The notes under the pieces were generated by a model. That model ran no database searches. It was not told the DNA's origin and saw only the letters and a program-made list of their open reading frames with translations. From the NCBI RefSeq assembly GCF_000203815.1, contig NW_004457695.1, forward strand, positions 2,726,054-2,790,053: DNA of 64,000 bases, given 5' to 3'. The stretch comes from Cavenderia fasciculata (lineage: Eukaryota; Evosea; Eumycetozoa; Acytosteliales; Cavenderiaceae). Position numbers and translations under genes: made by a program. Below, piece by piece: positions 54,397 through 59,154 of this stretch; the first letter of the stretch is position 1; every line of letters begins with the position of its first letter.

Positions 54397-54825
54397 ATGG
54401 ACCACGACACCAACTCAATTGGCGTGAGTGATCAAGCAGCTGATGGTGATCATAGTGTTAATGCCAACAACAACAATAATAATAATGAATTACAAGCAGT
54501 AGATTTAATTAATAATGCAGATGATAATGTATCATTATGTCCATCAGATGTAAACATTATCAGTCAAAATGATAAGTTAAAACAACAACAACAACAAGCA
54601 GAGGAAGAAGGAGCAGACAAAAAGAAAAAGAAAAAAGGGTTCTTTGGAAAGAAGAAAAAGGATGGTAAAGAAGATGATAAACCAGCAGAGGAAAAGAAGC
54701 CAATGGTTAGTTTCTTTGAGTTGTTTAGATATGCTACTTTGACTGAAAAGATGTTAATGTTTTTCGGCTCTTTGGCTGCCTTGGCCAATGGTGTTGCTAT
54801 GCCAGCTATCAGTTTGTAAGTATAA

Positions 54826-54863
<38 letters not shown>

Positions 54864-57800
54864 GTATAAACATCTTATTATTATTATACTTTTCCATTTA
54901 TTAATTTTTTTTGTTTTTTCCATCTCCTCTTTCCTTTCTTCTCATTTTATAGAGTTGCCGGTCAGATGGTTGATAGCTTCAGACCCGAGAACTTTAATGA
55001 CCCCGACTACAAGCTAGGTTTGTTGTTTAACCCTTAATAAATACACCAACACATTGTCTTACTTACTTTTTATTACATTTATTCTCTAGGTGCCGAAGTC
55101 GCTAAAATAGCAGTGTACTTTGTATACATTGGTATTGGTACATTGGTATGTTCCTACATTGAAACATCCATGTGGATGATTGCCGGTGAACGCCAAGCAA
55201 AGACCGTTCGTCAAGAGTACCTCAAAGCCATCCTCAGACAAGACATTGGTTGGTTTGATGTAACCAAGTCATCGGAATTGGCGACTCGTATCTCAAGTGA
55301 CACCCTTCTCTACCAAGAAGGTATCGGTGAAAAGGTTGGAAACTATATTCATCACAACTCTACTTTTCTTTGTGGTTTCATTATTGGTTTTACCAAGGGT
55401 TGGCAAGTAAGTAAAAAAATGTTACGAAAAAAAAAACAAAAAATATTGACGATATTCCTTTTTTTTTTTTTAGTTAACTTTGGTTATTTTATCAGTTACT
55501 CCATTATTGGCAATTGCTGGTGGATTTGTTGCAAAGGTTATTTCAGAGTTTGCAATTGAAGGACAAAGAGCATATGCAAAGGCTGGTAGTGTTGCTGAGG
55601 AAAAGTTGGGTGCCATTAGAACTGTGTCTATGTTTTCGGGAGAGGAAAAGGAAACCAATCGTTATGCTGAAAACTTGGAGGAAGCTTTAGCTATCGGTCA
55701 TAAAAAGGGATATACTAATGGTGCTGGTATTGGTGCTGTATTGTTTGTTATCTTTGGTACTTATTCATTGGCATTCTGGTATGGTTCTAAATTGATCTTT
55801 GACGGTACCAACAATGCAATCACTGGTAATCCATGGACTGGTGGTGATGTATTGACTGTATTGTTCTCTGTCATTATCGGTGCTATGGCTTTAGGTCAAG
55901 CTGCTCCTTCAATGGCCGCCTTTGCCGCTGCTAGAGCTGCAGGCCATAGTATATTCTCAATCGTTGATCGTAAATCATTAATTGATCCACTATCCAAGGA
56001 TGGTAAGAAACTCGAGACTGTTCAAGGTAACATCGAGTTCGAACACGTCCAGTTCTCGTATCCATCACGTCCAGATGTTCCCATCTTCCAAGATTTCACC
56101 CTATCGATCAAGGCCGGACAGACTGTTGCCCTAGTCGGTGACAGTGGTGGCGGCAAGTCATCAGCCGTATCTCTCTTGGAACGTTTCTACGATCCAACCG
56201 GCGGTCGTATTCTATTGGACGGTAGTGATCTCAAAGATATCAATGTCAAGTCACTTCGTGATAACATTGGTCTCGTCAGTCAAGAACCAGTGTTATTTGC
56301 TGTAAGTATCATTGAGAATATTAGATATGGACGTGAAGATGCTACAATGGATGAGATTATCGCCGCTACCAAGGCTGCCAACGCTCACGATTTTATCAGT
56401 AGTTTGCCGGAAGGCTATGATACATTGGTGGGAGAAAAGGGAGTTCAAATGTCTGGTGGTCAGAAACAACGTATTGCTATTGCCCGTGCTATGATTAAAG
56501 ACCCAAAGATCCTATTACTCGTAAGTAGAAACAAAAGATTGACTCTAATATCATGATTGACACAATATCATTAACACATTGCACTTGATCTTTATATCTT
56601 AAAGGATGAAGCTACCTCTGCGTTGGATGCTGAATCAGAACATCTTGTACAAGCAGCCATCAATCGTCTCATTCAAGGTCGTACCAACATTATCATTGCT
56701 CACAGACTTACAACCGTTCAACATGCCGATGTCATCGCTGTCGTACGTGGTGGAGCTATTGTCGAACAAGGTAAACATGCCGAACTCTTGGCATTGAACG
56801 GTGTCTACACCTCACTCGTTCAAAGACAACAAGCTAGCTCTGAAGAGGACAAACTCAAGGCCAAAATCCTCCAAGAAAAGACTGGCAATGCCGATGACAT
56901 GGGTCTCGCCAAAAAAATGCAAGAAACTGTCAAGGATCAAGAAGAAGAACCAGATATTCAAGAACTTCTCGCCAAGGAAAAGTTGGAACAAGAACAATTA
57001 AAGAAAAAGGAAATTGAAATGGTTAATCTCACTCCAGAGGAAAAAGAAGCAAGAGACAAGGCAGCAACCAAAAAGAAACAAAAAGAGATGCTCAAACAAA
57101 AGGTACCACTTCGTAGACTATTAAAAATGTCATCACCAGAAATCCATCTATTCATCATGGGTTGTATTGCAGCTCTCTGCACAGGTTCTGTCAATCCAAT
57201 CTTTTCCATTCTCTTGGCTGAAATTTTAACAGTCTTCCAAAACCCAGATATGGATACTCTTAAAAAAGAAGCTGCTATGATGGCCATTTGGTTCTTGATC
57301 GTTGCCATAGGTAGTGGTATTGCTCATTTCGTTCAAATCGTTTGTTTTAATCATATTGGTATGTACATAGGCTCAATTGAAAGAAGAGAAAAAAAGAGAA
57401 ATGAATCCTTTAAAAAATTAATATATTAACACTTTTGTTTTTTTTTTTTAATTTCTATCTTTATTTAGGTGAAAGACTTACATTCCGTTTACGTCATATC
57501 TCATTCCGTAGTATTATTCGTCAAGAAATTGGATGGTTTGATATGCCAGAGAATGCAACAGGTGTATTGACCACTAATCTTGCCAAGGATGCTACGCTTG
57601 TCCAGGGTCTCTCTTCAGACAGATTAGGTCTGTTACTACAAAACTTGATTACTGCTTTAGTAGGTCTCATCATTGCCTATGTGAGTGGTTGGAAGTTGGC
57701 TCTTGTAGTAACTGCCACTATCCCAGCCATCATCTTGGCAGGTAAGCTAGAGTTGGACTTTATGCAAGGTTTCTCTCAAAAGTCAAAGGACGCTTATGCA

Positions 57801-59154
57801 AATGCTGGCCAAGTAGCCAGTGAGGCCATCGGAGCCGTTCGAACAGTCGCATCATTCTCATCGGAAGAAAAGATATTCAAAAACTATGAAAAGAAACTAG
57901 CCGGTCCCATGTCGATGGGTTTCAAGAATGCTCAAGTCTCGGGTATTGCCATGGGATTCTCTCAATTTGTCATATTTGCCGTGTACGCACTATCCTATTG
58001 GTATGGTGGTCGACTAGTAGACAGCAATGAATGGCCAGCATCCGACTCTAAACTCGCAGACACATGTGCCGGTCCTTTTGGTGGACCAAATGATTTCTGG
58101 CCCTCCGAGTCAGTTTGCATCAATGCTATCAATGCAATTGAAGGTTTTGGTGTAATGATGAGAGTGTTCATGGCTATTGTCCTTTCCTCACAGGGTATTG
58201 GTCAGAGCTTTTCGTTCGCACCTGACATGGCCAAAGCCAAAACAGCCACGCTATCCATCTTTGCTCTCATTGATCGTGTCTCCAAGATTGACCCATTTAT
58301 CAACAAGGGTACCACCGTCAACCCAACTGAAATTCGTGGAGACATTGAAATTAAAAACTTGCATTTCACCTACCCATCAAGACCCAACAAGAAGATTTTC
58401 AATGGATTGAACCTTGTCATTCCAGCTGGATCAAAGGTTGCTTTGGTCGGTTCATCAGGTGGTGGTAAATCCTCTATCATCTCGTTACTCGAACGTTTCT
58501 ACGATCCAGCTCAAGGTGAAATTACCATCGATGGACAAGATATTCATGGTATGAATCTCAAATCACTCCGTTCGATCCTTGGTCTCGTCGGTCAAGAACC
58601 AACTCTATTCTCTGGAACTGTCTATGACAATATCGTCTATGGAAAACCCAACGCTACCATGGAAGAGGTTGAAACTGCAGCCAAGTCTGCCAATGCTCAT
58701 GACTTTATCTCTGCACTTCCAAATGGCTACCAAACTCAACTTGGTGACAAGTACACTCAATTATCTGGTGGTCAGAAACAACGTGTCGCCATTGCCCGTG
58801 CTATCATTCGTCAACCCAAGATCCTATTACTCGTAAGTAGAAACAAAAGATTCTAGACTCTAATATCATGATTGACTCTAATATCATCAACACATTGCAC
58901 TTTATCTATGTATCTTAAAGGATGAAGCTACATCTGCGCTCGATTCCAAGAGTGAAAAGGTTGTACAAGCAGCTCTTGATAACATTATGAAGGGCAAGAC
59001 AGCGATTGTGGTTGCTCATCGTCTCTCTACGATTATTGACAGTGACATTATCGCCGTCATTCACAATGGTACCATCATTGAACAAGGTAATCACAGAGAA
59101 TTAATGGACCTCAATGGTTTCTATAGCAGATTGGTTTCAAAACAAATTCAATAA
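54397..59154 (+). CDS. Full-length ABC transporter, B family (P-glycoprotein type), about 1399 aa
   Basis: Exons 54397-54815, 54953-55017, 55090-55406, 55474-56520, 56605-57358, 57469-58832 and 58921-59154. Architecture: a Lys/Gln/Glu-rich cytosolic N-terminus (1-105), membrane domain 1, ATPase 1, a Lys/Glu linker (about 760-840), membrane domain 2, ATPase 2. Motifs: Walker [10 protein letters not shown] (489-497) and GSSGGGKSS (1195-1203), signatures MSGGQKQR and LSGGQKQR, Walker B plus DEATSALD in both halves, and H-loops AHRLTTV and AHRLSTI. All catalytic residues are present, so both sites should hydrolyse ATP. It resembles multidrug-resistance exporters; the substrate cannot be deduced. 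In both halves an intron falls directly before DEATSALD, and the two introns are nearly the same sequence. The gene converges on the kinase gene with a 91-base spacer. Confidence 0.93.
56521..56604 (+). other. Intron before DEATSALD of ATPase 1 (near-identical to 58833-58920)
   Basis: Starts GTAAGTAGAAACAAAAGATT, contains CTCTAATATCATGATTGA and ends ATCTTAAAG. The matching intron in the second half of the gene shares these blocks with a few substitutions and short gaps. Confidence 0.85.
58833..58920 (+). other. Intron before DEATSALD of ATPase 2 (near-identical to 56521-56604)
   Basis: Same start, middle block and 3' end as the ATPase 1 intron, about 4 bases longer. The repeat CTCTAATATCA occurs twice in this copy. 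Confidence 0.85.

Follow-up and report, generated by a model that had tools for sequence, protein, structure and literature searches.

Where new spliceosomal introns come from is an open question for which traceable sources are rare: for dictyostelids, the available text of Ma et al. 2015 gives 98 putative gains in Dictyostelium discoideum and D. purpureum, two of them with a source, and neither source was an entire intron (PMC4683709). Intron transfer between paralogues and intron transposition are both named mechanisms in the accessible part of a review (PMC3443670). For introners, the available part of a survey reports that many families have a target-site duplication (TSD) or a terminal inverted repeat (TIR), though the fungal ones do not, and by term search its main text contains no mention of Dictyostelium or Amoebozoa (PMC9860276). 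Here, a stretch of Cavenderia fasciculata DNA (the window; 64,000 nucleotides (nt), bases 2726054-2790053 of contig C14, NW_004457695.1, in a genome of 31.0 Mb and 21 contigs) was analysed around an ABCB-type transporter gene, in which one short intron stands at the same point of both halves (i1 and i2), and a whole-intron counterpart (i3) was found in a TLDc-domain gene unrelated to it. The intron was probably gained by one half of the ABCB gene, converted to the other half, and also passed between the ABCB and TLDc genes at matching exon bases. This is a rare traceable case of an intron common to unrelated genes; the whole intron was followed through three places, and the common exon bases bear on its route.

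Pfam ABC_membrane and ABC_tran were both detected in each of the two ABCB exons scanned (gene structure in Table 1). Introns i1 and i2 lie in the first and second nucleotide-binding domains (NBD1 and NBD2), are both in phase 0, each between ILLL and DEATSALD, and share the start GTAAGTAG and the end ATCTTAAAG; the original prediction had placed both directly before DEATSALD, and its coordinates were exact. Its claim that the two are nearly identical also held, with 79/84 ungapped columns identical (94%), 4 gap columns in two gaps, and an interior alignment score that beat all 2000 dinucleotide shuffles (z 14.0). With up to 3 mismatches allowed, GACTCTAATATCATGATTGA and GTAAGTAGAAACAAAAGATT were found in the window only in i1 and i2. 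A near-repeated 18-nt unit is present in i1 (56537-56554) and, twice, in i2 (58852-58869 and 58870-58887). The gene's other four introns have 17 to 26% G+C and TAG ends, against 27 and 28% and AAG ends for i1 and i2. In-frame stops were met when either intron was read through, so that splicing would be needed to read on. ABCB intron 2 (55018-55089) contains CAACACATTG, which over a short length resembles the 3' part of both introns; when i1 was scored locally against 50 control stretches, no score exceeded 30.

Genome searches scored the best candidates only, and all copy counts are lower bounds; DNA searches with i1, i2 and i3 gave at least three copies genome-wide, in two unrelated genes. 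The search with i1 and its flanks returned three places, namely i1, i2 and C14:1473815-1473913 (E 5.8e-13, 78%), the last of which lies 1.3 Mb from the ABCB gene (L003 1501-1599; L004) and is i3, the first intron of a predicted gene with a TLDc domain in a later exon (E 1.6e-43). In the TLDc gene model, the exon before i3 codes for MVGIL and the next exon starts with DEADIYK. No clear paralogue of the first 126 amino acids of this gene was found in the genome (best other E 0.32), a result that refers to those residues, the genome not having been searched with the TLDc domain itself. Aligned with i1, i3 was identical at 71/77 ungapped columns, with 16 gap columns, and aligned with i2 at 68/80, and in neither case were any of 2000 shuffles as good. 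The best-kept parts across the three copies are the 5' end and the 3' part (TTAAC, ACATTGCACTTGATCT), and no exact TIR or TSD-like repeat was found in any of the three. What sets i3 apart from control stretches is its genome-wide E-value, its aligned splice sites, and 13 exon bases in common with the ABCB sites. A copy in an unrelated gene is one that conversion between the halves cannot explain. Of the sites that distinguish i1 from i2, 4 can be read in i3, and at each of them i3 has the base of i1; the substitution distances (5/84 for i1-i2, 6/77 for i1-i3, 12/80 for i2-i3) come close to additivity if i1 is placed at the node. Both are compatible with i1 linking i2 and i3, but are no more than suggestive.

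The exon bases common to the i3 and the i1/i2 sites are TACTC before the intron and GATGAAGC after it, beyond which the genes diverge at once. Uninterrupted, this 13-mer (TACTCGATGAAGC) has at least four exact copies in the 31-Mb genome, among the matches listed, and the intron is held by 3 of the 7 exact sites known, a count that leaves sites split by other introns outside. At all four uninterrupted sites (L043, L044, L045 and L046) the longest frame reads (V/I)LDEA(D/H) and has no intron; we take this to be a Walker B-like motif of the DEAD/DEAH type, named by motif. That the intron should have hit a match of 13 bases by chance is very improbable, so that either the flanks would have been carried along or the match would have chosen the site.

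Further copies were sought by pattern. A 21-base pattern with up to 3 mismatches recovered the three copies and two more places (L010 and L011), which by eye lie outside an intron context; a pattern built on the exon context was uninformative because its spacing range admits only i1. As controls, 53 intron-like stretches, i1 and i2 included, were roughly predicted in the window and the loci, some of which are probably not introns; 30 of these passed the filter, one being the TLDc intron with a wrong 3' end. Of those 30, 17 (one shortened) were joined with i1 into a query of 1854 bases, which gave 39 matches, and within it i1 retrieved i2 and i3. A counterpart limited to the intron and placed in an unrelated gene was shown for none of the 17 controls, with one multi-copy family and one 40-base match not fully traced. 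Other matches were obtained for 4/17 controls: the first belongs to a multi-copy family (L004, about 1597-2743) with 10 other places in the genome; the second lies in paralogous genes (L036 on C5 and L040 on C14) that are 87% identical over 2.3 kb including the intron; the third matched C7 at 90% over 73 bases, with a 25-base piece at 6 more places, and its C7 stretch (C7:150400-152900) has three pieces in common with L004 and is apparently a repeat; the fourth gave a 40-base CTA-rich match at C5. An exact intron 19-mer, AACACATTGCACTTGATCT, is also present in three IMG/VR viral contigs (L047, L048 and L049) with close sample numbers, and was taken as chance.

The exon flanks of i1 and i2 are identical between the halves over 15 nt on the 5' side and 11 nt on the 3' side, so the shared block consists of the intron and short exon flanks. 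The original prediction that the flanking exons differ more than the introns is right for the NBD exons overall, where nucleotide identity is 0.62 over 243 aligned codons and 0.60 outside codons -5 to +6, and wrong for these nearest bases. The comparison of intron with synonymous identity that it proposed was run on conserved degenerate codons, those coding for the same amino acid in both halves. All 8 such codons from -5 to +3 were identical, as were 28/34 in codons -25 to +18 against 50/105 outside (Fisher p 2.7e-4, with the span picked post hoc), and a permutation that chose its own segment gave codons -28 to +16, with 29/34 identical (p 0.0048). In the paralogue on C3, which is without the intron, the two halves were alike over the same stretch: 7/7 codons in the core, 23/34 against 43/105 outside (Fisher p 0.006), and, by permutation, 23/27 silent codons in codons -30 to +2 (p 0.0012; L015 and L016), which suggests recurrent within-gene conversion in ABCB genes.

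Table 1. Features of the ABCB gene and of its two related introns (positions in the window)
Feature	Position	Strand	Remarks
Full ABCB-type transporter gene, transmembrane domain (TMD)-NBD-TMD-NBD	54397..59154	+	1399 amino acids; seven-exon coding sequence (CDS) joined and translated, 0 internal stops
ABCB exons	54397-54815, 54953-55017, 55090-55406, 55474-56520, 56605-57358, 57469-58832, 58921-59154	+	
Intron i1, 84 nt, NBD1, before DEATSALD	56521..56604	+	Alignment and CDS; nearest to the node joining the three copies
Intron i2, 88 nt, NBD2, before DEATSALD	58833..58920	+	Alignment and CDS
15-nt exon flank of i1 (K-I-L-L-L)	56506..56520	+	Same in the two halves; its final 5 nt, TACTC, recur in the TLDc gene
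11-nt exon flank of i1, GATGAAGCTAC	56605..56615	+	Same in the two halves; its initial 8 nt recur in the TLDc gene
15-nt exon flank of i2	58818..58832	+	Identical to that of i1
11-nt exon flank of i2	58921..58931	+	Identical to that of i1
Top-scoring segment for raised synonymous identity between the halves, NBD1 side, codons -28 to +16 including i1	56437..56655	+	Permutation

Genome-wide, 21 NBD matches were found, and none of the 19 other than NBD1 and NBD2 of this gene has an intron at this point; 18 of these sites were read directly, and L032, whose match ended short of the site, was read separately. A protein tree built from 12 of these NBDs, namely both of this gene's and 10 out of the 19 others, joined ABCB NBD1 with the NBD1 of the C7 paralogue (85/91), and ABCB NBD2 with C7 NBD2 (89/89) and then C3 NBD2 (86/94), which supports, without proving, that the ABCB halves are older than the genes. 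On the TLDc side, the protein gave a weak hSac2 match from exon-1 residues (E 3.5e-4, below the cut-off); a genome search with the hSac2 family returned three matches at two other places, the TLDc gene not among them, and reading these matches gave no sign of whether ILDEA is native to the TLDc gene. A PDB search returned nothing.

For i1 and i2, gene conversion between the halves, one of three options offered by the original prediction, is the most likely reading; identical flanks, synonymous identity raised near the intron, and the parallel signal in the C3 paralogue all argue for it. Its other two options, late duplication and a regulatory RNA, did not fare as well, and the third copy was not visible to it. 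In our reading, one half of the ABCB gene would have acquired a short spliceosomal intron, a gain that we infer in preference to the loss of an ancient intron from the other genes, and local gene conversion would have brought it to the corresponding site in the second half, together with no fewer than 15 nt of exon on one side and 11 nt on the other. It would also have passed between the ABCB gene and the start of the unrelated TLDc gene, at the same 13 exon bases; since these bases recur at the TLDc site, the transfer may have been guided by, or have carried, a short exon sequence. The route between the genes might have been homology-guided repair or an RNA or cDNA intermediate. Once placed, the intron would be removed as an ordinary GT-AG intron, and a regulatory role need not be supposed.

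Several observations weigh against this account. Codons -8 and -7 differ at several bases within the supposed tract, so that a single clean conversion tract does not fit. The C7 paralogue's own halves gave only a weak signal (Fisher p 0.048; permutation p 0.08), and comparisons of ABCB with C7 were themselves significant in three of four permutations (p 0.03, 0.03 and 0.004, with segments ending at codons -11, -5 and -5; the fourth spanned -28 to +33 at p 0.38, not significant) and reached p 0.05 to 0.06 in two of four Fisher tests. Against C7, too, exon identity is thus raised in part, so that what clearly sets this ABCB gene apart is no more than the core beside the intron. In the tree, 5 of the 9 inner branches were unresolved, only one was starred, and C3 NBD1 stood apart from the other NBD1s; open frames run long in both the C3 and the C7 gene, so that the intron could conceivably have been lost there. 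As for the third copy, the genome search with i2 and shorter flanks found only i1 and i2, and that with i3 alone found only itself; these searches do not link i3 to the others, which places i3 near the detection limit. Among 1225 pairs of the 50 AT-rich control stretches, unscreened for paralogy or simple sequence, the best local score was 60, against 68 for i1-i3 and 45 for i2-i3. The polarity that puts i1 between i2 and i3 depends on 4 sites.

A possible but doubtful alternative is that a spliced intron entered three matched sites independently, one in each NBD of the ABCB gene and one in the TLDc gene; it might, for instance, have reverse-spliced into an mRNA at the sequence of its own exon junction, with reverse transcription and recombination to follow. 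The occurrence of all three copies at the same 13 bases, with 3/7 of the known exact sites occupied and no exact TSD or TIR, would suit such insertions, and a reverse-splicing model is named in the available text of the review (PMC3443670). According to the same text, reverse splicing has been demonstrated in a mutant alone, with the intron returning to the position that it came from, and the four exact in-frame Walker B-like sites are empty; for the two halves, moreover, conversion accounts for the further identical exon bases (15 + 11), and has its parallel in C3. It is likewise unlikely that this is a spliceosomal intron homing to its own exon junction, which would re-insert only at TACTC followed by GATGAAGC, a coding word for Walker B, without the marks of a transposase.

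Matching positions have been used to infer intron age in two-half transporters, but when the halves of a duplicated gene carry an intron at matching points, this does not prove the intron to be older than the duplication. An old intron of that kind, kept alike by selection as a regulatory RNA or splicing element and lost elsewhere, is very unlikely here. That the 5' end and the 3' part are the best kept in the three copies is what such selection might leave, whereas the exon flanks, synonymous positions included, are as identical as the intron, copies number only three or more, and many losses would be required, followed by conversion anyway. Structured or regulatory intronic RNA, which the original prediction had raised, was tried as a candidate and rejected: a Rfam scan of window positions 56400-59000, with E values up to 5 admitted, had no hit within either i1 or i2, and i1, i2 and i3 (i3 with one exon base) folded no better than their shuffles, most of which were more stable (z 1.1 to 1.7). 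Selection of this sort thus drew no support from either analysis and is not needed.

Late duplication of an ATPase segment, by which both halves would be young, had been another of the original options and is highly improbable. The intron and its immediate flanks are nearly identical, as such a duplication would leave them, but the halves differ at 42% of amino acids, which argues against an NBD-sized copy, and each groups with the matching half of C7 in the tree. Were the duplicated piece very short and put in place of the homologous site, the event would be none other than conversion. An assembly artefact or chance likeness, for which only the i3 scores speak (68 for i1-i3 is near the best control, and i2-i3 is below it), is just as improbable, since for each of the three pairs none of 2000 shuffles was as good, the E-value of i3, the matching splice sites and the 13 exon bases oppose chance, and the copies have distinct surrounding exons and differ by substitutions and indels.

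In the literature searched, which left out most subscription journals, no prior report of this intron was found; a further article (PMC10733785) concerns, in its available text, introns common to orthologues and has no bearing on this case. Ma et al. 2015 (PMC4683709) is likewise concerned with the source sequences of dictyostelid introns, but here, unlike the sources in its available text, the counterpart in an unrelated gene comprises the entire intron, both ends included; the thresholds given there (80% coverage, 0.85 similarity, E 1e-10) are stricter than the 78% match of i3. Introners, as the available part of the survey describes them (PMC9860276), resemble this case in that similar introns occur in unrelated genes of one genome, whereas here only two unrelated genes and at least three copies are known, a pair of the copies lying at homologous sites within a single gene, with no exact TSD or TIR and no wide spread seen. 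Reverse-splicing transposition, as outlined in the accessible part of the review (PMC3443670), would likewise put a whole intron into an unrelated gene with exact boundaries and no TSD; unlike in that model, the site here has 13 exon bases in common with the other copies, and the case is known from sequence alone. In paralogue intron transfer, as set out in the same part of that review (PMC3443670), recombination passes an intron to an intronless homologous site, as between i1 and i2, but here donor and recipient would be the halves of a single gene, and the further occurrence of the intron in an unrelated gene falls outside that model. As a whole-intron transfer that can be traced, the case belongs to a general kind already known, and the matching of exon sequence is its own trait.

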